A stretch of DNA of 64,000 nucleotides, taken from NCBI GenBank assembly GCA_026874595.1, contig CM049322.1, positions 53,347,386 to 53,411,385 of the forward strand, in the 5' to 3' direction. The notes below the pieces were generated by a model. The model was not told the origin of the DNA. It saw only the letters and a list, made by a program, of their open reading frames with translations, and did no database searches. Positions 32,127 through 63,497 of this stretch are shown here, piece by piece. The first letter of the stretch is position 1. Each line of letters begins with the position of its first letter. Position numbers and translations under genes: made by a program. Source of the DNA: Sipunculus nudus. Lineage: Eukaryota; Annelida; Sipuncula; Golfingiida; Sipunculidae.

Positions 32127-32127
32127 C

Positions 32128-32520: not shown

Positions 32521-32538
32521 AAGAATATAGTCTTGACC

Positions 32539-39550: not shown

Positions 39551-40236
39551 AGTTTTTTTTTAAATAGGACAGGCTGATTATGATGGCATTGCATGCATGA
39601 GGAGATATGGTTGTATGGGGCTATTTATTGGAGACCTTCGACAATAACAGACCCCATTATCATGGAGTTAATGAGATCACAGCCGTAAGCTTTTATTCGT
39701 TAAGGTTTGTGGAAGCTGTCATGTGAGTTGTTGATTATATAAAGACTTAGAGGTTAAGTAATTCTATATAAAGTTGTATAACAGAGATGTCAAATTTGGC
39801 AGTTCGTAGGATTGTCCTTTTTCAGGGAAGTAAACTCTGTGATTTCTTAGGATTACAGTGGATTAAGTGTCAAACCTTTCTGTACCCATTAAAGGTGTCT
39901 TCAGAATGAAGAAAACGTATATAATTACCCTAATTTGGAACAAAATAAAGTTTCCATCCTATGATATTCAAAGCAGTTGTGGTATACTTTTGTGATCCGG
40001 TTAAAGCACTGTCTTCAAATTATAAACAAAGCACTGGTTCTTAAAATGCCTGTGCTTTACAAATGTTCAGTGTAAAACAAACAAATTACTGGCATTCCCG
40101 AGTATGCCTCGTATTCCCGATTAAATTTAAACATTTAATGTCTATAGAGACATATTGGGAGAACAGGTGCAGCTACAAGCTGCAATGTGAAAAGAAATAT
40201 GGACCATACACAGCTAAAAACTTGCATTGTACTCAC
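39551..40236. other. Intron sequence between minisatellite and ILEI exon
   Basis: Non-coding in the model, with no recognised repeat. The plus-strand frame at 40,063-40,371 is a shadow of the ILEI exon. Confidence 0.5.
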
Positions 40237-40749: not shown

Positions 40750-41031
40750 CTAAACATCGAAAGAAAATATAGCTCAACAATAAGTTAAATCAATTTAGAT
40801 TAAAAATAGCAAAAAAAAGTGTGAGCTTTGAAGCAAACCAAGGTATGAAAGTTGGAAACATTAGTTGTTTATACTATAACAATACCCCATAATAGAATAA
40901 TGAATGATGACTCTTATAGTATGTTTAAATTTTATGTTTACTAGTGATGTGTATATTTTTTGCAAGAACCGAGTATTTTACACTTTTTTATATTGTAAAT
41001 CTGTCAATAAAGTGATATCTCCAATAGGAAC

Positions 41032-41239
41032 TGTTACGTGGTTCGGGCGGAACATCCAGAAAAAGGCGCACACACAAGTAGAATAAACACAAATGAAGTT
41101 CATCTACTTTAATATGGCAGTCTACAGGAAGTCAGGTCTATAACACTGCGCATGCGCTGGGTGTAAAGTGAAATAATATCCCGTGTGACGATTATAAGGT
41201 AAAACAGTTTCTCATGTGACAATTACCATTTACGTAACA
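41032..41239 (-). mobile_element. 3' LTR of a Ty3/Gypsy retrotransposon
   Basis: A 208-bp block bounded by TGTTACG and CGTAACA, the TG...CA inverted ends of an LTR. On its 5' side (41,240-41,252) is a polypurine tract, AAAGAGGGAAGA on the minus strand, as expected just before a 3' LTR. With the pol remnants upstream this fixes the orientation. The matching 5' LTR is missing, so a target duplication cannot be tested. Confidence 0.75.
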
Positions 41240-42545
41240 TCTTCCCTCTTTAAAAGAATCGAAATTGTGTGTCATATGATATTGCAATAAAGATGATTAT
41301 ATTAAATAAATAAAATTACATAAACCAATCCTCGTTGTTTACTCACAGGTCTTATAAGAAGAAACACAATTAAAAGAGTCTTTGCTAAAATCACTGGTAG
41401 TTGATATGAGTGTTCACAAGTTTAAACGACCAACAGAATTTACCACTCTACCATAGCGTGAATGACAAACATTCGCTTGGGTCTGTGGCTTGAAAGTTGT
41501 ATCCGGTTTTGGTGTTTCAGCCTGTGTAGCCTCACTTACATTAGCGTCTGGCTGGTTTGGTTGTGTTACATCGGTCGGTGTAGTCTCATCAGTTTGGACT
41601 GGTGGTGTCACTATGGTTGGTGGTTTAAGACGAAGAAAACTGTCTGTTTCTGCAAAATACAGTACCGCAAGTACTTTGGACTTCATATGTCCTTGGTTTG
41701 TTCTTTCTAATCACGGTTGCCTTGCGCCATTCCCTCTGTCCCCTCTTAGTTGGCTGCTTACGCACGGTGTCTCCAGGGTGAAGAGGTTTTAAATCTTTCC
41801 TGGAGCTGTTTGGGAGATTTTCCATATTGGCACGTTTGTCTTGCTTGACCTTTTGCACATTGTCTGCAGTCGCTGGTTTAAGATAGTTAAATGTCGTAGG
41901 TATGAGTGGCCTTGTACGCTTCCCGAACAGTCCCTGGACTGGGCTGTTACCAAGTCCCTCCGTTGGTGTATTTCTATAAATTAATAGTCCCAAAAAGAGG
42001 TCCTCCTTTTCAGCCCTGCACTTTCTCATGATTCGTTTTGCTGGTTTTACTGCGGCCTCAGCTGCGCCGTTTGCTTTGTTGTTCCCAGGGCTCGATATCT
42101 CAAGGCTAAATGCCCACTTTTTGCTGAATGATTTGAAACTGCTCGATGTGTACTGTGTACCACAATCGCTGACAACAGTGTCTTGGATTCCATGTCGCGC
42201 AAAGTGGTGTTTAAGCTTGGATATAACGGTGTCAGAAGACCTATCTTATAGATAGTCCAGCTCAAAGAATTCGCTGTAGAAGTCTACAGTAACTAAATAT
42301 CAGCGTTCCTTGAATGTAAACAGACCTGTTGCAACTTTTTCCAAGGGGCGGTCTGGGACGTCATGTAGGTTTAAACGTTTCCGGGGGTTGCAAATCCGCA
42401 AACGTAGCACAGTTGTCACAAGATTCCACTGACATTCTTGGCCAATATACAAGTTCACTTGCTCGGCGAAGGCAGGTGTTTATCCCGAGGTGCCTTGCGA
42501 GTTGTATATCTTTCATCTCTTTACGCTGATGAAACGAATCGAACT
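41240..42545 (-). pseudogene. Truncated, frameshifted Gypsy pol (integrase) remnant
   Basis: Minus-strand remnants of the integrase part of a Ty3/Gypsy pol: an HDVPDRP linker and VTVDFYSEFFEL (first catalytic Asp region, about 42,240-42,400), then KANGAAEAAVK (about 42,040) where the usual SPGYPQSNG motif lies, then LLIYRNTPTEG, a C-terminal LHPGDTVR segment, and a terminal RYGRVV motif near 41,440. These pieces lie in different frames with internal stops. Protease, reverse transcriptase, RNase H and the 5' LTR are absent; truncation is at about 42,545. The fragment sits in the intron after the signal-peptide exon, in the gene's own orientation. It is dead as an element. Confidence 0.8.
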
Positions 42546-44540
42546 GAGCGATAATAAGGAAGAGTGTACTTTAGTTCGAGAGCTCTGCAGCTTTGATATT
42601 AGGTCGTAGTCTAAAATAAATTTTATATCAAATCTCGTGTTTACTCGCGACAAATATTACTTGTGAAGAAAAAATAAAGAAAAAAAAAGAAACATACGTG
42701 TGAAAACATCTTTTAGTTTGGGAAACATTTTCAAGCAAAAGGTTGTATACGCCTGACAACAAAGATCAGCTTTTCCATAGACCCGGCGCAAACAGGGAAA
42801 GAAGAAATAGGAAAAATGTGGCCATCGATGATTCCACGCTCGGAGGGACCTAAGAGAGTCCATATATAGAAAATAATTTTGACTGAAATATCGATGTTGA
42901 AAAAAATAACTGGCTGGTGGGTTCTGAAGAGACATGCATCCTTTAGAACACCTTCAGAAAGGGCCATATCTGGGGAGATAGTCGCACCAAATTTTCCAAA
43001 AAATTAAGGGATAAGCCATCCTAACCTTACCTTTCTCCCTAGCCAATATAACGTGGCGAAATGTAATGCTTTCGTTTCTCCCCGTCAAGCTTGAAAGATA
43101 CCGCCAGTTTTTATTCTATCTCCGTCTAGCTTTATCATCTAATATAATAATAATACTAGTTGTACACAACAGTGTCAGTTGTCAAGTGTGCCATAGGTAA
43201 CATATATTTACTTGGTCTTTATTATTTCTCATAACTAATATGTTCATTCTTAAATAATAGTAATAAAACATTGAAGACATCTTTCAAACTCTATGCCACG
43301 TTTGTCAATGTACGTGCGTAAAACTAATCACAGCTGGAATAATGCCCCAAATGACCATTTGCAAATCATCAGTACTCAACAGGTTGCACGGTAAGATGAA
43401 CTTTATCATGGAGGTTTAATGTGACAGTTGTTTAATACACTGGTATATATGAATGCAATTCATCCCGCCTGCATAGACTAATTTCGCTGCAAGAACTGTT
43501 AACCGGGAATTCTGATACCGGGATTAAATCCTTTCACTACAGGACACTCATTAGGGCACATACCATGGTCAAAGCAAAATAGCCCGACTGGTTCAAAAAA
43601 TTCATTTCACCGTGTCTCCCATTTATTGTTTTTGATAAAATATATCTCCAAGCTCCACAGAGGAGCATAAAAGGTGTTCAGTCAGGGCATTTTTGCATAA
43701 TCATGAAAAAAAAGTGATTAAGGACCAGAGTTCCTGCCCAAAACGGTACGTGCTTTCGCTGATATAACACACAGACTTATTGATTGTTTAATAATTTATG
43801 TTTAGCTACATTTGACTTCGAACCAAGAAGCGAATAACATTACACCAGAAATGTGGTATAATTTCATCGGGAATCCCACTAATACTTAATGTTATTTGTG
43901 CTTAAATATGTCCCAAAGCTCCACGTAGTAGCACAGAAAGCTGGTCAGTCATGGAATATTTGCATAATCCTGGAAAACAGTGATTAAGGACCAGAGTTCC
44001 TGCCCAAAACGGTACGCGCTTTCGCTGATATAACACATAGACCTATTGATTGCTTGACGGGCAAATAGCTGGCTTGGATTGGGTTATAAATAGCACTTCA
44101 TCCAAACCTTGAAATATCAATGCAATCGAACCATGCCTTTAGGAATATCCTTGCCTCATTCAAACGTAAAAAGATTCCACTTAATGTTCTGTATTTATAC
44201 GAGGTGATTTTGTTTTGAAAGAATGCAAAATTGTTTCACATAGAATTAAAACTAATAATGTGTGACATCACATATAAGATACATGTAGGATATTCCTCTA
44301 AGACCCAATATGTACATTTACGATAGGAATGAGAATGCGATGGGTGAATGAAGTAAATGATTTAATATATAAAATTTGATTTAAAAAAAATAAAAAGATA
44401 TACGAAAGGTTTATAATTAAATAATGAAATGCTTAATAGCTTTAAAAGCTTGAATAATGAAAAATCAAAATACTTTTGCAAAATTTAGGAATATTTTTAC
44501 TAACGTTCAAGTGAGTTTGTGACAAATAATGATGGTGATA
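42546..44540. other. Intron sequence with a diverged direct repeat
   Basis: No gene was recognised. Two direct copies of about 147 bp lie at 43,648-43,795 and 43,912-44,060. They share AAGCTCCAC, GTGATTAAGGACCAGAG, TTCCTGCCCAAAACGGTAC and TTTCGCTGATATAACACA, and are well conserved in their second halves. Confidence 0.55.
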
Positions 44541-44544
44541 ATAT

Positions 44545-45610
44545 TTTAATTTTGGCTAGTTAATATCATGGTATTTAATATATTAGAATTATATGAAGAA
44601 ATAACCTGAGGAGGAAGAGCAGGTACGTTTTGTCCTAAAGGTAGAATCGACAGCAAGGAACTGTCCTTGCCTGAAGCAGCGACCAAGATAGACACTGCAA
44701 ACAGGAACATTTCAAGGTTATTTGACGATACAGACAGCTCAGAAAAAAAACTCTTTATCAGTTATTTGTAGGTAACTCAGCAAGCAATGGCCAGCCGGAT
44801 AGGACTGTGTATTATTCCTTGCAGTCATAACTTCCATAAATCATGAGACAGGAGACAAAGTAATTTATAATTTGATAACAACGTGACCTGAATAATGGGC
44901 ACTTCCATGAATTACAATTACCGCTCAAAAGTCTGCACCAGTAGAAAAATATAATGTTAATAAGAATAATGTTATATGGTTGATTATTTGGATGAGGCAA
45001 ACATTTTATTCCAACACCAAACCTCAGTTGACCATGAGTTGGACCACTTTGAAGTGTAAGACGAAGAAACATGCATTTCACCTTAATGCACTGTTTCTTA
45101 CTCGATTGGTTACTTAATGGATGACCACTTTTCTATATTGATTGTCTATGCACATGGTAACTTATCATTTGCATAAGATAAACATTCAGGTACATTGTTT
45201 GAAAACTACCATTATTTACTTAGTATAATCGACCAACACCTCTTTTATTAAAGGGAAGAAAGCACAAGCAAACCCCAAAAGACGGGGTATTATTTATTAT
45301 TGCATGGCATTATTTGCTGCCATCAATAACAGGTGACCATAGTGTGCATGATGAATGAGTAATTATAATTTTAAAATAATTTAAAAAAAGAAATGGCCAA
45401 ATGAATATATATGGTTGTAAATCCTGTGCTTGGTATTTCTCCAATGAAACGCGGAGACAATAGAACATTTGTAACAGGAATACACCTTCTCTTACCATAA
45501 AGGAAATGCATGTAATGTGTAGTGTTTGCCGGACGAGCCTAAAGGATTTCAACAGCTGGATGCTGATTCAACAGCGACTCTTGTGAAACATGTTGTTCAC
45601 ATAAAAAGAA
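44545..45610. repeat. Paralogous promoter/first-exon segment 1
   Basis: First of three direct paralogous segments (the others are 48,010-49,740 and 50,440-51,760). Shared landmarks include GAAATAACCTGA, a signal-peptide exon (segments 1 and 2 only), AGCAAGCAA, AAAGACGGGGTATTA or similar, TGTGTCTGATATTTTTCC-like sequence and AGGATTTCAACAGCTGGATG. The segments mark repeated duplication of the 5' end of the minus-strand secreted-protein gene. Confidence 0.6.
44671..44710 (-). CDS. Signal-peptide first exon A of the ILEI-PAN gene
   Basis: ATG followed by a short hydrophobic leader, MFLFAVSILVAAS, plus one base, giving a phase-1 donor in the form G|GCAAGG: a GC-AG type donor rather than GT. It is the nearest first exon to the ILEI exon (4 kb). 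Its phase fits both the ILEI and PAN acceptors, giving a protein of about 294 residues: signal 1-13, linker, ILEI domain about 64-182, PAN-like region about 186-294. The second first exon at 48,155-48,194 has a standard GT donor, so this one may be weak or an alternative promoter. Confidence 0.55.
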
Positions 45611-48009
45611 TATATATATATATATAATTCAGATATTTATGTATGCAACCTATTATGATTATCATTATAATATGTTTCAGCAATGCAATGCGAGTGTCAA
45701 CTTTTACTTTGAGTTTTATTATGATGTTTTTGTAATTTGGAGCGGTTCTTTTTCTGTTATGATGCAGAAAAGACCGCCTTTGGGTTTCCTGCTTTGTCCT
45801 AGTTAGCTTTTTCCTTTATTAATATATAACCAGAAGCCCGAAGGCCGTTAATGCCAAAAGTTAATGCCAATTATTGTTTTCTTTCAAAGAGGTAACTCTT
45901 ATCATATATTTATTTTGAAATTAAAGAAAAATACTTTGCCAGTAGTAAAATAGAGTATATTATCATGTGGCCAAGAGCACGTATAAAGGACAATATTTGT
46001 TCAATTTAAAGGAATATCTGTCCATAGATAAGTCATAAATTATATATCATACAGTAATTAACCATTTGAAAACAACTCAACAAATTATTTTTTTCTTTTA
46101 AAAACTATACTTATATACATGTATGTGTATTTACATAATTACATCTATTTATTAACTTTAAAATAAGGAACATTGCATCAGAAAGACACTTAATTTTACA
46201 CGTTAGAATATTTGAGTATCATTTTCTTTCTGTAACATTAATGGATTCTATATATTTTTCTCTCTTATGCACACTTCTTCCTCAGAACCAGCTGGAAAAA
46301 TGACTTCGTTTCAAGAATACGAGGGTTTTCAAACGGCTTAACACTGTTACATCGGGGAATGGTGTTAATACCACATATCATGCAGTCCGTTGGGTCATTT
46401 ATTTTGACTGTCACTTTGGCATGGAACTGTAAAAATATATGACTATGTGAGATGATTTTGGATATCCTTGATCGCCGTATCATGTTAATAATATATCTTC
46501 TTGTTGTTGCTGTTATTATCATTATTATCGTTTGCAGTTATAAAAGTGGTAAAGTAGAAGTAACGGTGTTTGTACTTTTGGCAGTGACAGTAAAAGCTCA
46601 ACAATGATAATAAGTTAATAATATATAGAAGTGAAAGCAGGATAATAATTATGAAAAATATAAAGATTTAGTAATATCATAATTTCCATGTTTAGCCTAC
46701 GTCAATACGCTGGTTATCGAGAGCGATCAGAGAGAGGGAGAGAGAGAGAGAGAAGGAGAGAGAGAGAGAGAGAGAGTATTACTATAAGTGTGGACAGACA
46801 GTAAAAAGAAACGAAAACGGTTTGGTAAGTCCCAAACCTGACCTCTGAAGGTTTAAAGTTTTAGTAATGCCTTTTAAGAAACAATCGAGGTGAAATTTCA
46901 TGCTGTATGGAAGTTTATTCCATGCTCTCAAAGCCTGCATAAGTCACCGTCAGTTTATTTTCATAGTTATTTTCGCTCGTACGATATGACAAAAAGCGGG
47001 CTCGACAATACTCCATCCGGGTTCCTATACGCACACTAAAGGAGAAGCTACAAAAAGGTTGGAAAGAGTGTACTTTGCAGAATGTATGCATTTTTTATCC
47101 TGAAGCACGAAGCACACATTTATATCAGGGAACATTTTACTTATGCACCTTTGTTTGACATACTGCATCTTTTAATCAGGTCTGTAAATATCCTGAAATA
47201 CACCCATTACCATTCCATGTTTCAAAATATGAAAAAAAAAATATATAAATAAGATAAAATCCGAACAAAATGACTTAAGGTTCGTTTTTAGATGTTTGAT
47301 GCTGCCATTGGCATATCGACTATAGTTTAGCATTAACATAGTTTTCTAACATCGGATTTCCAAGAAGTTTGCTTCTTAAACATAAGCAACTCCATGGTTA
47401 CAATCCTGTAGGTATCTCTCGGATGAAAGAGAAATCAACCTCAGGTACATGATATTGGACAGTATGAGCATGACCGACAAAAAAAACTCATCCTTGTAAT
47501 TAAAAAATCGGGACACACGCTACGTCAAAATATTCTTGGACTCCAAGATGGCATGGGGATTACACGGAGAAGTTAGTTCTATATTTGCAAACCGTCCCTT
47601 TAGTAGACATAACACGCACTTGGTTGTCAGATATATATCCGCTGCATAAAACGAAAAATCTCGAATCATTACCTTCACAAATTCACATTGTAAATCTTAC
47701 CCATTTCACATACAGATCCTGTATGTATATAAATAATTAATAATCAGACATAGGATTTTATATGCACATTGTTTATGATATTTTTGTATAACAGTTGATT
47801 GCAATATTAAGAACTAATATGTTATATCAATATATGATATATATATATAGATATATAGATGATATATTTTTTTAAATCCATATTCTAAGACTGATAATAC
47901 AATAAAAAGATTGAGTCTGATAAAATGAACAATCGAAATATTGCCGCTTTATGGTAGGAGACATTTATACTGAAGATCCTTATAGCTTGCGACCAATACT
48001 AGTGGAGAT
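45611..48009. other. Region between the two first-exon segments
   Basis: Apart from the possible exon at 46,265-46,426, nothing coding is supported. It contains an interrupted (GA)n tract at 46,725-46,785 and short (TA)n runs. The right-arm homology begins at about 47,755. Confidence 0.5.
46265..46426 (-). CDS. Possible terminal exon, unrecognised
   Basis: An acceptor (ATATTTTTACAG) precedes 53 in-frame codons and a stop, beginning FHAKVTVKINDPTDCMICG and ending FFQLVLRKKCA. The acceptor is phase 0 in this frame, which does not match the phase-1 signal-peptide exons; read in phase 1 it stops after ten codons. It lies between the two first exons and has no right-arm counterpart. It could be an exon of another gene or chance. 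Confidence 0.25.
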   Translation of the reverse strand, partial: FHAKVTVKINDPTDCMICGINTIPRCNSVKPFENPRILETKSFFQLVLRKKCA

Positions 48010-49740
48010 ACTAATGGAGTTGGTTCGTCAATAAAATGGAAATATGATATATTGAAATTACATGTAGAAATAACCTAGACTGGCAAACTGGGCGACGTTA
48101 CTTAGCTTCTTTCCCCACAGAAGTTCGAGATGGACAGCAAGCAAATTTCCTTACCTGAACAAGCGATCAAGATAGACACTGCAAACAGGAACATTTCTAG
48201 GTACCTTGACGGCACAGGCAGCCCGCAAAAAAAAAAACTGTATTAGTTATTCTTTTCCTCAGCAAGCAAAGAACCGCCGGAGCAGCAATATCTGCCACAA
48301 AACATAGTCATATTTGCAGGCTGCCAGGAGACAAAATAAGTTATTATTAAATATCATATATAGTTCAGCGTGATGGAATTATGTGCACACCTGTGAATTC
48401 TAAATTCAGAATGAGGCCGCTTAAATGGTAAGCTACAGTAAAAATATAAATTCTCTTATATTTTTATCTATTTAGAAGAGACGAGCATTTTCATTCTAAC
48501 AGACATCCTCATTTGGCCATGTTTTGGGCCTCTTTGATGTGCATTTTCAATTATTGCGCTGTATCTATATTGATTAGTTAAACGAAAACACTGCAACCAC
48601 GTCTCTATGATCAGCAGTGCAAATGACAATCTCACGTCACTATCAGATAAGCATTTATGTACTTTTTTACATTATTACATAATAACTTATTAAGTTTAAT
48701 AGACTGGTAACCCCTTTCATAGAGTTTAAAAAGCCCCAGCAAAACATAAAAGGCAGAGCATTTTATATTTCTGCATGGAATATTTCGCTGTCATCCATAA
48801 CTGGTAACAAAGGTGGGGATGTTGAATATGTAATGGGAATCAATATTTTCCACCCTTTATCAAACTTAGATAAATGGCAAATTGTGGTCGTTAACTCTGT
48901 GTCTGACATTTCTCCGATAGTACATGGAACAAAAACATTTATTACATTTTATATATCTTCCTTTTTACAAAAAGGTACAGTGAAGGTGTTGTGTTTGGAG
49001 GCAGAGTTGATTGGATTTCAACAGCTGTTCAACGGCAGCTATTAAACTGAGCTGTCTCATTACCATCACCCTGGCGACATCTGTCGTTCGCCACTGACAC
49101 TTAGTACTCTGATCCGTAATGTCGACAATTAGGAATATATTTTATTTCTGCTGATTTAATGTAATAAACCCTTCATAACGTTTACGGTTAAGTAAGTTAA
49201 CGTAAGTTCATGCCGCATATTCTGGTATGTAATTTTGTTCCAATAGGCAAAAAAATACATTGCTGGTTGGCTGGAGTGAGCACAGCAGGTGATCATTGCA
49301 GTGCGCATGCTTATAAAAAAGGCCTATTATGGATACATAATGCATAAACGATTCAGCTTTCCATTGACTACCCTTTGCTTTGAAGTACTTATATTTTAGA
49401 TTACCAGAAGACTTTTAAATATGACACTGAAAATGTTTTCACTCATAGGTCTTTCAAATCACTCTGTAGCTACGAGAGTCCTGTGTTATTTATTTAATAA
49501 AGACGATGCAAGTTGTTTTGGTCTCGAGTTTCAGTGCATGCTCGAGGTTTACGCAGCAAAGTATTTCAAATTTTGAAGCAGAATCGATTACCAAGCTCTC
49601 ATTGGCTGAATATGTCAGTTCTGTGTTAGCCGTCTGATGGGCAAACCCGGAAAATGTTGCTATAGCGGGCAGTGGTTGAGAGAAATAGGCTATGACATTG
49701 TTATAATATAACCACTGCATAAGGAGCACACGAGAAAAGA
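48010..49740. repeat. Paralogous promoter/first-exon segment 2
   Basis: Second of the three related segments, and the one copied, inverted, into the right arm. It contains first exon B. Further upstream in the gene's sense is a conserved CCAAT box: CTCTCATTGGCTGAATATG near 49,598, with the equivalent CTGTCATTGGCCTGCATAT in segment 3 near 51,620. Confidence 0.6.
48155..48194 (-). CDS. Signal-peptide first exon B (left arm)
   Basis: ATG and MFLFAVSILIACS, then a phase-1 donor G|GTAAGG. It is a paralogue of 44,671-44,710 and the exact counterpart of the right-arm exon 59,945-59,984. To reach the ILEI exon it must splice over 7 kb, past exon A. It may be an alternative first exon of the same gene, or the start of a neighbouring gene whose other exons are lost. 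Confidence 0.5.
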
Positions 49741-49902
49741 TGGAATGTGTACAAAGTCTAGCATTCCGTTGCACTTGTTTCCATGTTTGGTAACGTAAAG
49801 CTTGGAATAAGTTAAAACTATATAAAATGACTTTCTTGAAGGAGATATTATTTTGCTACGTTAGCTATGAAGAGAATTACCTGTCTTTTTTTCCCGATGG
49901 GG

Positions 49903-49926: not shown

Positions 49927-50231
49927 ATGAATCTAGAAGCCCTCTGTTTACGTTGCACTAACGCATGGCTACCAAATATATCTTTTTCTTCATATGCATT
50001 GATGTGCACCCAATCTGGCATATAGATAATTTTATTAATCGAATACATTTTAAAGGTTTATATCTATTATCTCATGCTTACCCACGATATTGTTCTATTA
50101 TCCTTTTGAGACTTAGATTGTTTAAAAATATTCGTGAGCTTTATATGGTCTTCAACGAATTTTGATGTTTCATTTAATTTGAGAGTGAGGGTAAGATTAA
50201 TATATTCAGCTCATTAGGGTGCATTTTGAGC

Positions 50232-50236
<5 letters not shown>

Positions 50237-50284
<48 letters not shown>
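50237..50284. repeat. (TA)n microsatellite (left arm)
   Basis: A pure TA tract of about 48 nt. The homologous right-arm tract is at 55,750-55,796. Confidence 0.95.
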
Positions 50285-50289
<5 letters not shown>

Positions 50290-50439
50290 TCAAATACACA
50301 AATGTAATTTACCAATGAAAGGGTTACAAAAAATGAATAAAATCAGCTTCAAATTGCCAATTTTGGTTCTTCCTGTTAAGAAAATGCCTGTTAGTTTCAG
50401 CTTTGCATTAGCTGGTTTCTGTGATACTCCATCCTAAGG

Positions 50440-51760
50440 AACAATTTCCATGCATGAATAACCTGAACTGGGCTAAGGGAAAAGATATTTTCCCTAATGA
50501 AGGTAGAAGCAATGAAACGTGCACTTCCTTGGATTCAAAAAATTAATATGAGGCTTTTAAAATCGTGACTTCTATTAGAATAAAAAAATTTCTCATTGGT
50601 TATCTATTTAGAATAGTCAAACATTTTCGTTCCAACGCATAACATTGTAATTATATCGATCGGTTGTAAGAAACAGCAATTTGTTGACTAGTTCTGGTAA
50701 CTTCACGTTCTCAACAAGCAAGCAGTTAGATATGTTGTTTCAATAACATCATGATTTACTTAGTATAACAGGCTGGCACCCCATTTATTGCAGGGTCGAA
50801 CTCACAAGCAAAACACAAAAGACGGTTTATTTTATAAACTCCAGCATAGAATGTTTTGCTATCATCAATCACTAGTGACAATAGTGGGCATGATGAATAT
50901 GTGATGAAAATTGAAACCGTCAATTCTTAATAACACTAGATACAAAGATTAGTGGCAAATGATAATATATATGGTCATAAATCCTGTGTCTGATATTTTT
51001 CCAATGGAACCTGGCAACAATAGAACATTTTCACCTAAAATTTACCTCTTCTGCCATAATGGTAACAAATGTCAGGAGCCGTGTTTGCCGAGACGAGCTT
51101 AAAGGATTTCAAAAGCTGGATGCTGTTTTATCAGCGACTATTAAATTGAAGTTTCTCGTTACACAAGCTAGACATGTTGCTAAAAACAAAAAAAAGAGAA
51201 TACCTTTTATTATATTTCAGACGTTTGAATGAATGAAACCTAGCATAAATATTACAGCGAGGTTCTTGAAATATTGTCTGGCAAGACTTTCATTAAGCTA
51301 GAAAATATGTACAACACTGTTTCGTTGGACTTGAACACAGGAGGCGACCGTTACTCGCCGTGCGCATGCCCGTGGAAAAGGTCTATTAAGGGGACTATTT
51401 TAAACCCAGTCCATATAAGGGAATCAGCTTACCCTTGTATTACTGAATCTGAGATGAAAAAGAATTGTAAACAATTTCCGTAAAATTGTTCACTCAATGG
51501 TCCTTCAAATCACTCTTATTTATTTTGTTGTACAAGTTGTAATTGTGTTGAGCTGCGCTCCTTGTCCACTGTTTACACAGTGCTGTATTTAGACCTTTAG
51601 TGTTCAATCCGATACCTAACTGTCATTGGCCTGCATATTACTGCCCTGTGTAAAACGCAAACCAAGTGATGGACAAACTCTGCTGAAACATGCAGTCGAT
51701 AAGCAAAATTATAGTAAGAATGCAACATAACCACTGCATAAGCGCAGTACAGGAGCTGTT
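50440..51760. repeat. Paralogous segment 3, without a signal-peptide exon
   Basis: Third related segment. It shares the flanking landmarks with segments 1 and 2 but has no ATG-leader exon at the expected place (about 50,480-50,540). It contains GCGCATGCCCGTGG followed by AAAGGTCTATTAAGG. It is copied, inverted, in the right arm (about 54,300-55,600). Confidence 0.55.
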
Positions 51761-52306
51761 TTTTTATGAAAAGGGTTTTACATCTAGCTCTCTGAATGAG
51801 TGCACAGCTTTCTGTTGTATTTTTAGAATGTGATATAAAACCTGGTAATGTACAGGTACATGTTTTTTAAATAAAGTAACTGTATTAAATGAAGTGCTAT
51901 TTTGCCTTTTCAGACTGGAAATGAATACCCATTACATGTCTCTCTTTCGCGGAGGTATCAACAGCCTAAGTTACCCAACGCATCTGTTACCATTTTCTAT
52001 AAAAAAAAATTGCTTTAAGTAAGGACTTGTGGCATGGCCGTTACTATATGTAAGGATTGTTACCCTGAAGAACCAAACTTTTACCGAGTAAGAAAACAAT
52101 GAGCACACGACATGGGCTTGACAAAATAGTATAGAGATTCAGATGTAAACCGTATAATTCACGACGTATAAACTAGACTCTGATTGGTCGCTTCGTATCA
52201 GCAGTCAGTTGTTTCTGGGTGTGAAGAAGTCGAGCCATGTTTGACATTCAACGTGCAATCTGATGTACTTGGGTCGTCGTTGAAAATGTTCTAGTTACTT
52301 GTGCTC

Positions 52307-52592
52307 ATGGACTGTGACAAAAAGATTGATTTACTTGATTACTGGATTTACAATCATATATAATGTATGCAAGATACAGTCAAGAAAAGAGGTCAAACTG
52401 ACAAGAAACAACCTAACGAAAGGAGAGATTCTTAAGATAATCATGTCACCTATTAATGAAGACCCATTTTGGTTTATGTATTGTCTGGGACGCTTGCGTA
52501 AATATGAGCTTAATATTTTAAAGTCCATGGAAGCAATCCTGACAATAGTACATAGAAATGCTCTGAGGACATTCATAATTGAGTTCCAGTAA
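52307..52592 (+). pseudogene. Frameshifted small gene remnant, possibly CARD-like (left arm)
   Basis: An ATG opens MDCDKKIDLLDYWIYNHI and stops. A second frame of the same strand then continues with NNLTKGEILKIIMSP, NEDPFWFMYCLGRLRKYE and LNILKSMEAI. Put side by side the two parts resemble a death-fold CARD pattern (LLDYL, LTxxEIxKI, L..L..RK, A...AL), with about 20 extra residues at the break. Both arms carry the same break, so it predates the inverted duplication. A CCAAT box (CTGATTGGTCG, about 52,180) lies upstream. The CARD idea is speculative; what is clear is a broken frame conserved in both arms. Confidence 0.25.
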
Positions 52593-52650
52593 TGAGAAAA
52601 ATGCCCATGCATGTTAACATGACATTACTTTGTTTTCTATCACCCTAGGA

Positions 52651-53383
52651 CCTTGTTGATGCCTGTCACTTGTCTAGTGTAGAGGCTTGAATATTCAGAG
52701 CAGTGTAAAAGAGTATGTGATCACGAAAATAGCAGAGAGCCAATCTAGATGTATATATAATGGAATATAGTATTTTGTTACATTGGAGAATACTTGAACT
52801 GTCCATTTAACTGGATTTCTTGAGGTATTTAAATTTAATTCTTCTTGTCCTTTTCAAACACATAGTAAAGGCTAATCATTAGCTTTCGGCGTTGTACTCC
52901 TTTAATATAATTGCGCTTTCAGCATCCTGTTTCCTCATTTCTACTCTTCTTCTCGATGTGGTCTTAACCTTTTCTTTTCCCCCTGTTGTCAAGATAAAAA
53001 CAATTCTGGTATTATGCCATGTCCTCTTCTATGTACTTATCTAAGCCACTTCAAGAGTTTAGCAAAGTATCCAGATATTATCCTCAGGTTTTTATATAAT
53101 CATTACATTCAGTACATGTCACACGCAAACGATTTTTAGCTCAGCTGACTGAAAGTCATCTGAGCTTTAGCGATCACTTTTTGTCCGTCGTCCGTCTGTC
53201 TTTCTTGCGTCTGTCCGTCTGTTTGTCTGTCCGTCCGTTAACAGGGCACAAATCGTAACCACTAGACCTATAATCATCTAACCTGACATCAAAGGAAACC
53301 CATGGATAATCTCGTCGGAAACCAGAAATTAGGTTTCTGTTACCCATATCTTACGAGAAATGGGACTCTACCCCCTCAAAAGC
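52651..53383. other. Palindrome spacer with an AGCTCAGCTGACT hairpin repeat
   Basis: About 733 bp of single-copy sequence between the arms. At 53,138-53,166 AGCTCAGCTGACT and AGTCATCTGAGCT form a hairpin (12 of 13 pairs, loop GAA). It is followed by TTTAGCGATC, GTCCGTC-type repeats and ATGGGACTCTACCCCC-like sequence. I associate this arrangement with a very common interspersed repeat in bivalves. No gene. Confidence 0.7.
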
Positions 53384-53441
53384 TCCTAGGGTGATAGAAA
53401 ACAAAATAATGTCATTTTAACATGCATGGGCATTTTTCTCA

Positions 53442-53727
53442 TTACTGGAACTCAATTATGAATGTCCTCAGAGCATTTCTATGTACTCTTGTCAGGATTG
53501 CTTCCATGGACTTTAAAATATTAAGCTCATATTTACGCAAGCGTCCCAGACAATACATAAACCAAAATGGGTCTTCATTAATAGGTGACATGATTTTCTT
53601 AAGAATCTCTCCTTTCGTTAGGTTGTTTCTTGTCAGTTTGACCTCTTTTCTTGACTGTATCTTACATACATTATATATGATTGTAAATCCAGTAATCAAG
53701 TAAATCAATCTTTTTGTCACAGTCCAT
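53442..53727 (-). pseudogene. Frameshifted small gene remnant, possibly CARD-like (right arm)
   Basis: Mirror copy of 52,307-52,592 with the same early stop and the same second frame. It differs by two residues (Lys for Ile near GEILK, Arg for Ile near LTRVH). The similar wording of the break in both arms argues against a sequencing error. Confidence 0.25.
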
Positions 53728-55747
53728 GAGCACAAGTAACTAGAACATTTTCAACGACGACCCAAGTACATCAGATTGCACGTTGAATGTCAAACACGGC
53801 TCGACTTCTTCACACCCAGCGACAACTGACTGCTGATACGAAGCGACCAATCAGAGTCTAGTTTATACGTCGTGAATTATACAGTTTACATCTGAATCTC
53901 TATCCTATTTTGCCAAGCCCTTGTCGTGTGCTCATTGTTTTCTTACTCGGTAAAAGTTTGGTTCTTCAGGGTAACAATTCTTACATATAGTAACGGCCAT
54001 GCCACAAGTCCTTACTTAAAGCATTTTTTTTTATAGAAAATGGTAACAGATGCGTTGGGTAACTTAGGCTGTTGATACCTCCGCGAAAGAGAGACATGTA
54101 ATGGGTATTCATTTCCAGTCTGAAAAGGCAAAATAGCACTTCATTTAATACAGTTACTTTATTTAAAAAACATGTACCTGTACATTACCAGGTTTTATAT
54201 CACATTCTAAAAATACAACAGAAAGCTGTGCACTCATTCAGAGAGCTAGATGTAAAACCCTTTTCATCAAATAGCAGCTCCTGTACTGCGCTTATGCAGT
54301 GGTTATGTTGCATTCTTACCATAAGTTCGCTTATCGACTGCATGTTTTAGCAGAGTTTGTCCATCACTTGGTTTGCGTTTTACACAGGGCAGTTATATGC
54401 AGGCCAATGACAGTTAGGTATCGGATTGAACACTAAAGGTCTAAATACAGCACTGTGTAAACAGTGGACAAGGAGCGCAGCTCAAAACAATTACAACTTG
54501 TACAACAAATAAATAAGAGTGATTTGAAGGACCATTGAGTGAACAATTTTACGGAAATTGTTTACAATTCTTTTTCATCTCAGATTCAGTAATACAAGGG
54601 TAAGCTGATTCCCATATATGGACTGGGTTTAAAATAGTCTCCTTAATAGACCTTTTCCACGGGCATGCGCACTGCGAGTAACGGTCGCCCCCTGTGTTCG
54701 AGTCCAACGAAACAGTGTTGTACATATTTTCTGGCTTAATGAAAGTCTTGCCAGACAATATTTCAAGAACCTCGCTGTAATATTTATGCTAGGTTTCATT
54801 CATTCAAACGTCTGAAATATAATAAAATGTATTCTCTTTTTTTGTTTTTAGCAACATATCTAGCTCGTGTAACGAGAAACTTCAATTTAATAGTCGCTGA
54901 TAAAACAGCATCCAGCTTTTGAAATCCTTTAAGCTCGTCTCGGTAAACACGTCTCACATTACATTTGTTACCATTATGGCAGAAGAGGTAAATTTTAGGT
55001 GAAAATGTTCTATATTTGCCAGGTTCCATTTGAAAAATATCAGACACAGGATTTATGACCATATATATTATCATTTGCCACTAATCTTTGTATCTAGTGT
55101 TATTAAGAATTGACGATTTCAATTTTCATCACATATTCATCATGCCCACTATTGTCACTAGTGATTGATGATAGCAAAACATTCTACGCTGGAGTATATA
55201 AATAAATCGTCTTTTGTGTTTTGCTGGTGAGTTCGACCCTGCAATAAAAGGGGTGCCAGTCTGTTATACTAAGTAAATCATGATGTTATTGAAACTACAT
55301 ATCTAACTGCTTGCTTGTTGCGAACGTGAAGTTACCATAACTAGTCAACAAATTGCTGTTTCTTACAACCAATCGATATAATTACAATGTTATGATTTGG
55401 AAGGAAAATGTTTGACTATTCTAAATAGATAACCAACGAGAATTTTTTTTATTCTAATAGAAGTCTCCATTTTAAAAGCCTCATATTAATTTTTTTGAAT
55501 CCATGGAAGTGCACGTTTCATTGCTTCTACCTTCATTAGGGAAAGTATCTTTTTCCCTTAGCCCATTTCAGGTTATTCATGCATGGAAATTGTTCCTTAG
55601 GATAGAGTATCACAGAAACCAGCTAATGCAAAGCTGAAACTAACAGGCATTTCCTTAACAGGAAGAACGGAAATTGGCAATTTGAAGCTGATTTTATTCA
55701 TTTTTTTGTAACCCTTTCATTCCTAAATTTAATTTGTGTATTTGAAG

Positions 55748-55749
<2 letters not shown>

Positions 55750-55796
<47 letters not shown>
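55750..55796. repeat. (TA)n microsatellite (right arm)
   Basis: Counterpart of 50,237-50,284, of nearly equal length. Confidence 0.95.
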
Positions 55797-55799
<3 letters not shown>

Positions 55800-56850
55800 G
55801 CTCACGATGCACCCTAATGAGCTGAATATATTAATCTTACCCTCACTCTCAAATTAAATGAAACATCAAAATTCGTAGAAGACCATATAAAGCTCACGAA
55901 TATCTTTAAACAATCTAAGTCTCAAAAGGATAATAGAACAATATCGTGGGTAAGCATGAGATAATAGATATAAACCTTTATAATGTATTCGATTAATAAA
56001 ATTATCTATATGCCAGATTGGGTGCACATCAATGCATATGAAGAAAAAGATATATTTGGTAACCATGCGTTAGTGCAACGTAAACAGAGGGCTTTTCTTT
56101 AAATTGTAGAACATTTTTATCATGAACTTTACCATATCAAGACAAATAGTGCAAAACATCTTACAATTAAAACAGATATAATATGATTTGTTTTTCAACG
56201 TCACCAAACATGGAAACAACTGCAACGGAATGCTTGACTTTTTACACATTCCATCTTTTCTTGTGTGCTCCTTATGCAGTGGTTATATAATAACAATGTC
56301 ATAGCCTATTTCTCTCAACCACTGCCAGCTATAGCAACATTTTCCGGGTTTGCCCATCAGACGGTTAACACAGAACTGACATATTCAGCCAATGAGAGCA
56401 TGGTAATCGATTCTGCTTCAAAATTTGAAATACTTTGCTGCGTAAACCTCGAGCATGCACTGAAACTCGACACCAATACAACTTGCATCGTCTTCATTAA
56501 ATAAATAACACAGGACTCTCGTAGCTACAGAGTGATTTGAAAGACCTAGGAGTGAAAACATTTTCAGTGTCATATTTAAAAGTCTTCTGGTAATCTAAAA
56601 TATAAGTACTTCAAAGCAAAGGGTAGTCAATGGAAAGCTGAATCGTTTATACATTATGTATACATAATAGGCCTTTTTTTATAAGCATGCGCACTGCGGT
56701 GATCACCTGCTGTGTTCACTCCAGCCAACCAGCAATGTATGTTTTGTCTATTGGAACAAAATTACATACCGGAATATGCGGCATGAACTTACGTTAACTT
56801 ACTTAACCGTAAACTTTATGAAGGGTTTATTACATTAAATCATCTGATAT

Positions 56851-59008
56851 AAAATCTATATATTAATAGCGTAAGGCGATTTTTGTGATTTTCCGTATCG
56901 CCTCTGATACCTCCGTACGGATTGCCGTGATTTTCGACATACATATGCTCTGGGTTTGTCCGAAGAGATTCCGCCCCCTTTTATTTGCAATATTTGCGTA
57001 TTACCTGCATAATTAATAATTTTAATATTTGCTCCCACGCGGGCGCCTCTTTTCTTTGTGTCTTCAGGCCTGGTAACACAATGGCCACAGAGTGTTTGAT
57101 GGCGGGACAGAGTTTTTCTCCGGGGGCCTTATCTGGGCTTTTCTTAAATTTGCGGTGACCGGCCCGAAATAATCCCCATTGTAGATCCCTTCTCAAAAGG
57201 CAACCTCCGCGCAGCGAAAAGGTCTATTGTGCACAAGGAGATCTCGCGTGAGGAAAATGCTTAAAAGGGGGATCTGTCAAAGAATGAACATTTTCCGAGC
57301 GGTAGTGAATGCAGGGTAGTGTGTAAAACCTGAACCCCACGGTCCCCGGACCCCATAAACCTATTTCCTCATTTTCCATTATTTATACCGATTAAAAACA
57401 CCACTATTGTTGATGTAAGGACAGAGCAAAGTCCCTAAATGTTGCACATTTGTAAATGACCGATTCACTGAAAGATTTATAATTACAAAAATATTTCGAT
57501 GAAGACGGACATCATTTACTTGAATTGCCGACTGTTCAATTTTGACGGACCCCAGTAACCACCGCTCATATTTTTATTTATGACTATAAGAGGACAAAAA
57601 TAGCACTCATGTCACACACTAAATATAATATTTGTTATTTTAAATGAAAATATAATAGTGCGGACACAGTGGGGGGAGATTTAATACGTAGTGCATTAAC
57701 AGTTGAGCGGACCTGAGACTGATATATCAGAGCACTTCCACATAACAACAGGTTTCGTGTTCCGTTCATAACCATACAATTTTAAAGTTGGCAATAACAT
57801 GAATGCCGAAAGGAACTGTTGATTACTTGCATTTCAAGCAACTACAGGTTCCAAAATAATGATTTTGTAAATATTTTAAATTATAATACTTTTTAAGACG
57901 CTACACAAATGAAATAAATACCAAATATAAAATTATGAATAAAAACTGAGACAGAAATGTAAAAATACAGAAACAAACACAATAATAAATCACAAATGTG
58001 TCATGGCTAAACGTGATGTCAAATACATGTATGTACTAAAGAAATGGTAAAATAACGAGAAAACGGGGTCCATGTAATCCGTGAGGTCCGTGCCCCAGGG
58101 TCCGTAAGTGTTTTTTTATCAAATTTTGTTGCAAAACAGACTATTTTTTATGTTTTAACCAAACATAATATAAAATATGTCTTTAGATACGATTATGCTA
58201 AAATATCTGGACAAATTACCATGAGGGTTTAAGAATTACAATTTTTTCTTGGGTTCCGGGATCCGGAGTGGGATCCGGGTTTAACACACTGGCTGAACGC
58301 AGTGACTGTCTCTTGGCTCAGCTTTCAAACAGAAAGGAGTGTGTGATATTTAAAATTATATACAGCCATTAAATGTACCACATAATATAATGCTACAACG
58401 AACTTTTGCGCAGCGGGATTGCCCGACCATGTGAGTGCTCAGTTTTTGTGCGTTATAACCGGAATGCAATTATCGAGATCACGTCTCAGCGCTGTACTGT
58501 ACTACCATGCAAGATAACAGGTCCCTGTACTGGCGGATTCACGGGCGTGGAGGGCAACTGTAAATGGCGATGTTCAGCATAATATATATTTTCATATAAA
58601 AATGATTTTATTTAACATATCAAATTCTTCGAAAATTCTCCGGCCAACCTCTCGGCTTCAATTAGAGTTTTATGCATAACACCATGCATATAATGGATCT
58701 ATATATTAATAGCGTAACGCGATTTGTGTGAATTTCATTTCTCCTCTGACACTACGGTTTGCCGTGATTTTTGACATACATATGCTCCGGGTTTGTCCGA
58801 AGACATTCCACCATTCGGATAAGAAGGTATTCGTCCAGGTCATTCAGACTCCGACACAAGGTAAACTCAGAGACGGAACACTTATACCAAATGTCGGATT
58901 CAAAGAGACAGTAACATTGTACACCCAAGACATGAAACTATGACAGACTTTTTGACATCAGAACTAAATGCTCGCCCAAAACCGTGCATGGCACGGGTAA
59001 TTGCTAGT
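56851..59008. other. 2.16 kb insertion found only in the right arm
   Basis: The left arm is continuous at about 49,142-49,160, where this arm has 2.16 kb extra. A direct repeat of about 110-120 bp flanks most of it: 56,853-56,970 and 58,699-58,812 share CTATATATTAATAGCGTAA, TTGCCGTGATTTT and GGGTTTGTCCGAAGA. Between them lies a TIR element (57,318-58,290). Small open frames at 56,981-57,196 (minus) and 58,728-58,943 (plus) match nothing I recognise. The directly repeated ends suggest a composite mobile unit or captured DNA. Confidence 0.6.
57318..58290. mobile_element. TIR element inside the right-arm insertion
   Basis: The left end AGTGTGTAAAACCTGAACCC and the inverted right end AGTGTGTTAAACCCGGATCC match over roughly 35 bp with mismatches, and both are followed by C-rich repeats (GGTCCCCGG, GGATCCCGG). 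GAATGCAG and GAACGCAG lie a few bases outside the two ends and might be a target duplication. No transposase, so non-autonomous. Confidence 0.45.
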
Positions 59009-59944
59009 ATATTCTTAATTGTCGACATTACGGATCAGAGTACTAAGTGTCAGTGGCGAACGACAGATGTCGCCAGGGTGATGGAAATGAGAAAGCTCAG
59101 TTTTATAGCTGCCGTTGAACAGCTGTTGAAATCCAGTCGACTCTGCCTGCAAACACGACACGTTCACTGTACCTTTACAAAAAGGGAGATAATTAAAATG
59201 TAATAAATGCTTGTGTTCCATGTACTATCGGAGAAATGTCAGACACAGGGTTAACGACCACAATTTGCCATTTATCTAAGTTTGATAAAGGGTGGAAAAT
59301 ATTGATTCCCATTACATATTCAACATCCCCACCTTTGTTACCAGTTATGGATGACAGCGCAATATTCCATGCAGAAATATAAAATGCTCTGCCTTTTATG
59401 TTTTGCTGGGGCTTTTTAAACTCCATGAAAGGAACCAGTCTATTAAACTTAATAAGTTATAATGTAATAATGTAAAAAAAGTACATAATTGCTTATCTGA
59501 TAGTGACGTGAGATGGTCATTTGCACTGCTGATCATAGAGACGTGGTTGCAGTGTTTTCGTTTAACTAATCAATATAGATACAGCGCAATACTTGAAAAT
59601 GCACATCAAAGAGGCCCAAAACATGACCAAATGAGAATGTCTGTTAGAATGAAAAATGCTCGTCTCTTCTAAATAGATAAGAATATAAGAGAATTTATAT
59701 TTTTACTGTAGCTTACCATTTAAGCGGCCTCATTCTGAATTTAGAATTCACGGGTGTGCACATAATTCCATCACGCTGAATTATATATGATATTTAATAA
59801 TAACTTACTTTGTCTTTGGCAGCCTGCAAATATGACTATGTTTTGTGGCAGATATTGCTGCTCCGGCGGTTCTTTGCTTGCTGAGGAAAAGAATAACTAA
59901 TACAGTTTTTTTGCGGGCTGCCTGTGCCGTGAAGGTACCTAGAA

Positions 59945-59984
59945 ATGTTCCTGTTTGCAGTGTCTATCTTGATCGCTTGTTCAG
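59945..59984 (+). CDS. Signal-peptide exon of the right-arm secreted PAN protein
   Basis: ATG, leader MFLFAVSILIACS and a phase-1 donor (CAG|GTAAGG). It is identical in coding sequence to left-arm exon B. The next exon is only 0.8 kb away (60,780), because the 16.3 kb block present in the left arm is missing here. The leader is short but hydrophobic, with a small residue at its end, as expected for a signal peptide. Confidence 0.65.
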
Positions 59985-60779
59985 GTAAGGAAATTTGCTT
60001 GCTGTCCATCTCGAACTTCTGTGGGGAAAGAAGCTAAGTTACGTCGCCCAGTTTGCCAGTCTAGGTTATTTCTACATGTAATTTCAATATATCATATTTC
60101 CATTTTATTGATGAACCAACTCCATAAGTATCTCCACTAGTATTGGTCGCAAGCTATAAGGATCTTCAGTATAAATGTCTCCTACCATAAAGCGGCAATA
60201 TTTCGATTGTTCATTTTATCAGACTCAATCTTTTTATTTTATTATCAGTCTTAGAATATGGATTAAAAAAATATATCATCTATATATCTATATATATATA
60301 TATATCATATATTGATATAACATATTAGTTCTTAATATTGCAATCAACTGTTATACAAAAATATCATAAACAATGTGCATATAAAATCCTATGTTTAAAG
60401 GTAGAGGTTTAATCTAGGGTCTTGAGGCCGTGTACGTTCATTGATCATATATAGATTTATCTTGAACTTGAGGCTGGTAAATCCTTGTACGTTCACATGC
60501 GGACAGGTCATGATGTGTTCTTTATAAACGCCAAAATGTAGGTCACTGTGACCCATGATCTCTCAGTAACGCTGCGACATATCAAAACCATCTGTCAGTC
60601 TGTTTAAATAATCACTAGTCAAATCAACTGTAAGATTTATAATAAGGCCAATTAATAGAAGTCATAGATGTGTTAACACTGTAGTCCCCGTGTATGGTAT
60701 ATGTACCCCAGTAAAAAGTCAGGATACAGATAATGAGTCTGATAATTAGCTATATCTCAATTTGAATTATTCACCACAG
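59985..60779 (+). other. Short intron carrying the deletion joint
   Basis: Contains (TA)n near 60,280-60,306 and the joint at about 60,393, where the complement of 47,755 meets the complement of 31,395 with a 2-bp overlap (GT). Confidence 0.6.
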
Positions 60780-61042
60780 AAAACACCTGTAAAAAGACAA
60801 AAGGAGGACATTTCAACCTAATTCCTGAAAGTGTGTTCGTTGGAGCGGAGCCTGCCATAATTCTGTCAGACAAGACCAAGACCGACTGCGTTATTTATTG
60901 TCTTCAGACTCCAGCCTGCATGACCATCAACGTCATCGAGCAGAGGCTTTGTCAACTGTTCAAGGCACGACGTGGATTCAAGGACACGACCATTAAAGCA
61001 AGTGCTGACACTTCGATCTTAGAATTAATCAAATGCCTTTAA
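60780..61042 (+). CDS. PAN/apple-like terminal exon of the right-arm secreted protein
   Basis: The acceptor TTCACCACAG is followed by a phase-1 exon of 263 bp. Joined to 59,945-59,984 it gives a 100-residue protein: a 13-residue leader, Glu at the junction, then NTCKKTKGGHFNLIPES and a domain with six cysteines (NTC, TDC, IYC, PAC, RLC, IKC). The pattern suggests three disulfides in a PAN/apple fold and an extracellular binding role; the ligand is unknown. It ends IKCL-TAA, and AATAAA lies 56 nt downstream (61,098-61,103). Differences from the left-arm exon are a 9-nt in-frame deletion (HPGE to Q), KTKG for MARR, and the stop codon. The intact frame, splice sites and poly-A signal suggest it can be expressed. 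Confidence 0.7.
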
Positions 61043-61097
61043 AGCACATTACCTTCTTATGCTGTTCTTTTTTCACCAGAAAAACGCATACATGCAC

Positions 61098-61103
61098 AAT
61101 AAA
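61098..61103 (+). terminator. Poly-A signal AATAAA of the right-arm gene
   Basis: Canonical AATAAA, 56 nt after the stop of the PAN exon. The homologous hexamer in the left arm (30,677-30,682, minus strand) is overlapped by the extended frame of that copy. Confidence 0.55.
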
Positions 61104-63497
61104 ATCAAAGAAAAACGAAAGGAATTCCCAACACTTTGCATAACACCGCATAAGAAGAATACATATACACACACATTTATATAAGCACAGACTTTGAAAA
61201 AAAGGAAAAAGGTTATATATAGTCATATGGCAGACATGATGTGCCTGGAGTTAAATATTTATTTAAAAAAAAACCCTCTGTTAATGAACTAAGCAAATAA
61301 AATAAAATCAGGTACTGCTATTTGATGATGCTGATAATCCTGCACTCAAATATCCTGATCCAGCACTAAATGTTCCGTGTATAATTGTACTACTGTCAGT
61401 GTTGCACTTACACATTTATAAAATGCTTTAAATGATGTAGTGATTCAGGTTGGATAGATAATGATGAAAGATGTGTTATTGAAATTGAAAAAGAAATATT
61501 TAAAAACTTGTAAAATGTATTGTTGAACACAAATACTTAAGTGTTATACGATATTTTTGTTAATATTGCACTCAGATATTTGTCTCTAGCATCCTACGTT
61601 CAGTGTTGCATTATATTATTGATAATACTGCACTCAAACAGTTTGATCTGGCACTTGGCGTTCCATGTTATATGATACAGTGAATATCATTTATAGTAGA
61701 CAGCCAGGGGAACAGAAGATGTGTCCGTTAAGCGGGATTTTCCCCAGAGGGAACAGAGGGAAGATGTCCCATAAGGACATAATCATCCATGAAATACTAC
61801 ATATAGATGTATTTTTTATTCATAAGACTATAAAAATAAATTAGTAAACTCTTAGATACTGATAAGTATATTTCTGCATTGAACAACAGAAAACAAAGCA
61901 ATCACAATCAATTAGTAGAAGCTTAGATAATGATAATTAATTAATATTAACATTATACTCTTTATGATTTGGCGTACACCATTGTGATAATAACCGAATG
62001 TCCTGTGATCTAGGGTTGAGCACAGGACTCAGAGGTCTGGTTTTTTTTCATGGTCGAGTGAGCGCTCTGGAAGGCCATGTCCCTCCACCTTATATCTGAC
62101 TAAAATACATAGATTACTTTAGTCAAATGTCTGTTAATAAGTGTTATCTTTTACTCGACTGATTTACTATTACTTGCAATATCTTGGAGTTAAGTTTAAA
62201 TTTCTTTTATCGTTTATACGGGATATTGCTGATGCAGATACTCTCTTATGTGGAGGTAGAATATGCCTGCCTGTTGAAATGAAACAAATCAACAAGTGCC
62301 CCTGGTAGATGGCATGTCCAGTACATTCATTCAATATAGCAGCATGAGCACTGAACATAACACTTTTCAATAAAATTATCCTGAAATCTTATATGGTCTA
62401 GTCTTAACTGTTGTTGAGTTTGAATTAACATTGTTGCATGAACATGAAAAATGTAGACATGACTTAAAATTCACCGCAAAGTTTACCAATAATACTATAC
62501 ACATGGTCTTTCATATAAGGATAACCGCCATGTTCTAGATCTGCGAGTTTCTTTGAATCTTCCTTGCATCATACCAATAATTCATTGCAGGCTCATATAT
62601 ATTTAAGATCACATTACGTAAGCAGAGTTCATAGCGTTTATAAGCTGATATAGTGGTTAGAACTCCGCTTAGCAGTAGCCGAACCAACTTGAACACGATC
62701 ACCTCCCCCCCCCCCCCTTATATATTTCCAGACTGATACATTGTTTGTAGTTGTCATGGAAATGTATTATTTACTTATAACGATCATTCATTTATTTATG
62801 TAAATGAAATGTTACAAGTTTGAACATTAATCCAAGCTTTTACAAACATAATGGAAAACGCCTATGAGAATAGAAATCTTCCTTAGATCAAAGCGTCTGA
62901 TGGGACGCGTAAAATTTGTCGTTGTTTTGACCGAGTTGCTCTTGTAGCTTTAATGACCATATTTAAAGGACCAGTCAACTGTACAAACTCTATACTGACA
63001 AACACTCAAGATTCCAATTTTTCAAATTATTATATAATGGCACAATATTAATTGATATTAGGTCTATATGATCCGAAAATGAAAATTGAAAGCCCTGTCC
63101 CGTTTCTTCTAGGTTGTAAAGGGAAACCCCTACATCCTTCTCTTAGAGCTCCCCTCTAACGTTAGCCCTCGCCCCTATTTTATTCTGTAACATCACTGCT
63201 TGAAAACATATGAACTTGATGTTTTCAAACTAACTAGCCGCTTGCATTGTTTTGTATTGTATTGTACCAAAAGGAGTTACTGATTAAATGTTGTATTATA
63301 TAAACAATCCTTGTTTTTTTTTGTATGTCATCCTCTGGTTCGAGTGTGAACACCAAAGCTCAGACAAAAAGCAAATGTTGGGCTCGAGTGCTTGACAGTT
63401 AATACAAGGACTTGTAACTATAGCAGAGCTTAACAAAGGGAACATGCAAAATCATAAGGTGGGGGATTTTATGTCTTTTCTTTCTGGCAAGGGTAAA

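Follow-up and report, generated by a model that had tools for sequence, protein, structure and literature searches.

In exon shuffling, removal of a symmetric 1-1 exon leaves the reading frame unchanged. Loss of domains by this and similar routes is an ordinary and well-known process, and short forms of the snake venom metalloproteinases, for example, are expressed. The excerpts of a published account that we drew on describe the loss of exon-coded domains in this duplicated, secreted multigene family, which, like the genes presented here, carries a phase-1 intron after the signal-peptide exon (PMC4963849). There, however, the terminal domain is swapped for a non-homologous region with a stop codon, whereas here an internal exon appears to have been deleted whole (PMC4963849, same excerpts). 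FAM3/ILEI cytokine-like proteins (PF15711) form the second point of comparison: the left copy of our locus and both paralogous ILEI exons submitted to Pfam score above the ILEI cut-off, but ILEI is coupled to a PAN domain here, and it is missing from the right copy altogether. A search of one literature library found no paper joining "ILEI" with "PAN domain", and the excerpt of a mussel gene list contains one "Interleukin-like EMT inducer" and no PAN (PMC11817969).

The closest relatives of the locus are found in its own genome, in a family of ILEI-PAN genes with which the right copy shares the leader and PAN exons and from which it differs by having no ILEI exon. The window, i.e., the whole stretch analyzed, comprises 64,000 nucleotides of Sipunculus nudus (C17:53347386-53411385), and the rest of the 1.43 Gb assembly (153 contigs) served as the outgroup.

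Architecture of the Palindrome

Self-comparison of the window revealed a spaced palindrome of four inverted blocks, with the left arm at 28265–52659 (minus strand), the right arm at 53376–63497 (plus strand), and a spacer of 716 bp (52660–53375) in between. Substitutions between the arms range from 2.6 to 3.9% per block, with 2.62% in block 1 (28265–31396 / 63497–60393), 2.61% in block 2 (47748–49139 / 60394–59008), 3.9% in block 3 (49135–49796 / 56859–56198), and 2.8% in block 4 (49937–52659 / 56094–53376). A stretch of 16,351 bp in the left arm (31397–47747) has no counterpart on the right and contains an ILEI exon, an inner leader exon, and a satellite array. The equivalents of left positions 31396 and 47748 abut in the right arm at 60393–60394, with 2 bp of microhomology (AC) at this joint.

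Conversely, a segment of about 2.15 kb upstream of the right leader exon (56860–59008) is confined to the right arm and represents either an insertion or a deletion in the left arm; direct repeats of 40 and 60 bp occur within it at a distance of about 1.84 kb, there is a 5-bp overlap at its ends, and it is mobile-element-like in appearance. Further duplications lie next to the palindrome. Window positions 1–25852, together with L011, form a direct tandem duplication with a period of about 14.2 kb, which begins left of the window, at −4589, and extends to 25852, and whose aligned pieces are 94 to 97% identical. On the other side, 13 kb to the right of the palindrome, a unit of about 4.96 kb occurs three times in tandem, with 99.3 to 99.6% identity between the copies (L010/L021, window coordinates 76525–91396).

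The Left-Arm Gene

The signal, ILEI, and PAN exons that the initial annotation had read on the minus strand of the left arm could all be located, with borders read as phase 1, and Pfam supports both domains. The outer leader exon (48155–48194, minus strand) has a GT donor and is the counterpart of the right-arm leader exon. An inner leader exon with a GC donor (44671–44710, minus strand) equals the outer one in 37 of 40 bases, as against 214 of 329 aligned bases in the flanks of the two copies (p = 2e-4). This better conservation of the exon, together with the recurrence of the exons in paralogues in the same order, speaks against a chance origin of the gene structure.

The ILEI exon (40237–40743, minus strand; 507 nt) is 1-1 symmetric and reaches 38.9 bits for PF15711 (cut-off 27). 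Its start had been placed at 40749, an AG six bases earlier, which would give an exon of 513 nt. Both AG acceptors are in phase 1 and the earlier one is also possible, but the exon starting at 40743 is favored by L032 and L033, in both of which this exon likewise begins with E-G-S; that of L034 (where the L004 gene starts) opens with E and then differs. Searches of the PDB for ILEI, by sequence and by profile, returned unrelated names only (E-values of 0.75 and 0.94 to 1).

The PAN exon (30678–31009, minus strand) passes the PAN_1 cut-off of 21.4 narrowly, with 21.7 bits. It does not end just after the last cysteine as is usual in the family: AAA stands in place of the family's stop codon, and the frame continues for 20 more amino acids to a TAA inside an AATAAA. 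At the C-terminus, the ILEI-bearing left copy thus reads as the odd member of the family, and the picture of a right copy that faces its parent across the palindrome is too simple.

Two repeats lie in the introns of this gene. A 97-bp satellite with 72 copies (32566–39551), missing from the right arm, occupies the intron between the ILEI and PAN exons, and a fragment of a retroelement integrase (rve; 26.1 bits, short of the cut-off of 32.6) lies between the inner leader and the ILEI exon (41625–42245). Rfam yielded no match at the gathering score.

The Right-Arm Gene and the Deletion Joint

In the right arm, only the signal and PAN exons are present, in agreement with the initial annotation, and the ILEI exon falls within the absent 16,351 bp. 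The leader exon (59945–59984, plus strand) starts with an ATG at 59945, encodes MFLFAVSILIACS plus 1 nt, and ends in phase 1 at a GT donor (GTAAGG); 61 of 61 bp in and around it are the same as in the left outer copy. By eye, its 13 residues are hydrophobic and constitute a putative signal peptide. The intron (59985–60779, plus strand; 795 bp) holds the deletion joint, and the PAN exon (60780–61042, plus strand) follows a CACAG acceptor, contains six cysteines, and ends with TAA. A 9-bp in-frame deletion in this exon is absent from the left arm and from all six aligned paralogues. Joined together, the exons give an open frame of 100 amino acids (leader, Glu, NTCKKT...), which confirms the in-frame join proposed before. 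PAN_1 (PF00024) is detected with 22.8 bits, again narrowly above 21.4; PDB searches for PAN returned two unrelated names by sequence (E-values of 0.22 and 0.6) and none by profile.

The right copy thus has a leader exon with a phase-1 donor and a terminal PAN exon that stops after the last cysteine, as is found in the family, and no ILEI exon between them. Its stop codon is the one used in the family: TAA or TGA occurs at this position, just after the last cysteine, in all six aligned PAN exons. The downstream AATAAA, also cited in the initial annotation, is a different matter, as the motif at 61098 is absent from the aligned place in each of the six other paralogues.

From this comparison, we consider it likely that the right arm has lost one symmetric exon, the one encoding ILEI. 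The leader exon could then splice straight to the PAN exon and give rise to a predicted secreted one-PAN protein of 100 amino acids, with the frame kept because the ILEI exon is in phase 1 at both borders and its length is divisible by three. Splicing, secretion, and any function of the right copy are inferred.

Gene Family and Ancestral State

Searching the genome with protein queries gave at least 40 ILEI matches and at least 26 PAN matches. Fragments are included in these numbers, and two of the 26 PAN matches stem from a single frame-shifted exon at C17:52684k. Pairing was restricted to the same strand and to 10 kb upstream, a limit chosen by us. Within it, 23 of the 26 PAN matches were preceded by ILEI, using 21 distinct ILEI matches; two PAN matches on C6 share one of these. 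The remaining three PAN matches are the right-arm copy (nearest ILEI at 341,747 bp), C17:52992086 (43,795 bp), and C14:63449744 (96,579 bp). Conversely, 19 of the 40 ILEI matches were unpaired with any PAN match; either ILEI genes without a PAN recognizable by our query exist, or the search missed PAN exons, and the coupling is seen for only part of the ILEI genes.

With the leader exon as a DNA query, we obtained at least 11 matches, ten in the C17 cluster and one on C8, ten of which span the full exon length. This number is a lower bound, and the leader copy of L033, found separately, is not among the matches. Family members are located in the C17 cluster and on C149, C8, and C4, with distant ones on C6 and C14. 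The same exon order recurs in paralogues; in L033, for instance, the leader exon is followed by ILEI and then by PAN within 6.2 kb, although the PAN frame is broken there. Both of the paralogous ILEI exons searched against Pfam score above the cut-off, as do two of four PAN exons (L004 and L008), with L007 below it and L006, whose PAN exon has lost a cysteine, unmatched. Judged from these sequences, members of the close family are built as signal–ILEI–PAN, and the absence of ILEI from the right arm reads as derived, because 23 of 26 PAN matches have ILEI upstream, whereas the nearest one to the right-arm copy is 341,747 bp away. The interpretation in the initial annotation is supported as regards a duplicated signal–ILEI–PAN gene that lost ILEI from one arm and kept its frame, with ILEI before PAN as the ancestral state. 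Its term "domain-shuffled" is better replaced by domain loss; compared with exon shuffling of 1-1 modules, the right arm shows the removal of a module, not its movement.

The two other PAN matches without a near ILEI differ from each other. For C14:63449744, which lies in L036 (C14:63445500-63450100) and is a distant PAN exon, no ILEI exon was found in the 4.2 kb upstream and none was matched for 96 kb; two neighbors in the same array have ILEI 1.4 kb upstream. This is a possible second ILEI-less case. C17:52992086 was considered as another one, with neither an ILEI nor a leader exon found in the 5.5 kb upstream, and was rejected: a same-strand ILEI match (52947788) and a leader match (52934135) lie upstream with no listed PAN in between, and the sequence is probably that of a long-intron gene.

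Regarding the leader exons, more than one match upstream of a single ILEI exon is seen in the left arm (44671–44710 and 48155–48194) and apparently in two more members (C17:53023561 with L033:1311, and C17:53041199 with 53055614). It is possible from their arrangement that such copies serve as alternative first exons.

Divergence, Constraint, and Possible Use of the Short Copy

Between the arms, the PAN exons differ by five amino-acid changes, one silent change, and one stop change. When the changes are polarized by what most paralogues share, the right lineage has accumulated three amino-acid changes, no silent change, and the 9-bp deletion since the split, and the left lineage two amino-acid changes, one silent change, and the loss of the stop codon, plus two more bases at right-gapped sites that are possibly older. 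Four of the seven differences are crowded into the 9 bp that directly follow the exon border, a stretch in which paralogues vary as well; the simulated probability of this clustering is 0.002, for a test picked post hoc.

Pairwise dN/dS values for PAN are 0.39–0.52 among four paralogues and 0.38–0.61 for each arm against those four, with the frame-shifted L005 and L033 excluded from these sets, and values for ILEI are 0.25–0.49 (left copy and three paralogues), which shows the paralogues to be under constraint. Between the arms, dN/dS of PAN is 1.70 on very few differences, and one of the six non-silent differences hinges on the codon alignment beside the 9-bp gap. The inter-arm ratio of silent to non-silent changes (1:5) is not significantly different from that of the single pair L004–L006 (14:22; p = 0.40, with only seven changes). 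We looked for a sign of constraint on the right PAN exon since the split in the inter-arm comparison and saw none.

We give about even chances to the reading that the right copy is a gene remnant that is not usefully expressed, its open frame merely left by recent common descent. Divergence in its PAN exon matches that of the remaining block (7/263 differences between the arms compared to 74/2833; p = 0.84), and the changes assigned to the right lineage, three replacements, none silent, and a 9-bp gap, fit as well. Decay also occurs elsewhere in the family: the PAN exons of L005 and L033 have a one-base frame change upstream of the family stop codon, and a likely dead member is represented by ILEI fragments at C17:52675156-52675622, which contain stops and have no listed PAN match in their vicinity. 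On the other hand, the right copy has acquired neither a stop nor a frame change, and its six PAN cysteines, leader, donor, and acceptor are intact. An open frame is weak evidence of use, however, because so few changes have occurred since the split, and a young gene fragment on its way to decay would fit the sequence equally well.

That the short protein is really used is therefore a tentative proposition at best and may well be doubted. The more specific reading, an active PAN-only gene whose secreted single-PAN product would compete with the full-length proteins for partners, we regard as unlikely. The sequence upstream of the right copy is nearly the same as that of its ILEI-PAN twin, and the role as a competitor for a leader plus six-cysteine PAN module is a guess from general knowledge of PAN domains.

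Origin of the Right-Arm Copy

The course of events that we favor starts with a signal–ILEI–PAN gene of a local multigene family, which would have been copied into an inverted duplication. The right arm would have lost the 16.35-kb stretch with the ILEI exon, either during this duplication or later, with simple end joining as the most likely mechanism. Duplication and loss as a single event, in which template switching made the inverted copy and skipped the 16.35 kb, strikes us as a minority possibility. The two blocks that flank the joint are equally diverged (2.62 and 2.61%), and nothing places the loss after the duplication; nothing specific speaks against a single event either, but a later simple deletion needs fewer assumptions. 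The intron halves beside the joint differ between the arms at 4/405 and 11/386 sites, respectively (p = 0.07), an inequality predicted by neither account.

Both accounts presuppose a palindrome that exists in the genome. If instead the arms were the two haplotypes of a single locus, fused head to head during assembly, their divergence of about 2.6% would be near the heterozygosity of bivalves (1.73% in a mussel, according to the excerpts of PMC7653742 that we consulted). Such a joining error is rather improbable here, as the window contains no N and a 716-bp spacer is present, and as the homology ends at 28265 and 63497. Comparison of the left flank (158 kb, i.e., 130 kb beyond the window plus window positions 1–28264) with about 100 kb on the right gave 21 inverted matches, none of which has ≥93% identity over 300 bp or lies within 20 kb of both outer ends, and high identity is thus not resumed in the 130 kb to the left or the 100 kb to the right of the window. 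Since folded haplotypes should keep matching and the flank homology ends, we take the palindrome to be very probably real and not a fold-back. Still, other individuals may lack the right-arm joint if this genome, whose repeat types are tentatively reminiscent of bivalves, resembles bivalve genomes, which can be rich in presence–absence variation and heterozygosity (PMC7653742, same excerpts).

A gain of the 16.35 kb with the ILEI exon by the left arm, with the right arm as the older state, would leave the same joint, and a 2-bp target duplication could mimic the microhomology, but this is highly improbable given ILEI upstream of PAN on C17, C4, C6, C8, C14, and C149, leader exons on C17 and C8, and no terminal repeats visible by eye in about 60 bp at each end of the segment.

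Implications for the ILEI-PAN Family

Under the favored account, the locus represents a clean case: of two similar inverted copies, one has been shortened by a single deletion that takes out exactly one in-frame domain, and the ancestral state can be read from paralogues in the same genome. If the possible recurrence at C14:63449744 holds true, the loss of ILEI would be a repeated route in the family. If the right copy is used, its leader and six-cysteine PAN exon would form a small secreted module for binding that lacks ILEI, and an active PAN-only gene would amount to a natural one-exon-deletion experiment. If it is expressed, comparing full-length with ILEI-less proteins could teach us the role of the ILEI domain in such secreted proteins.
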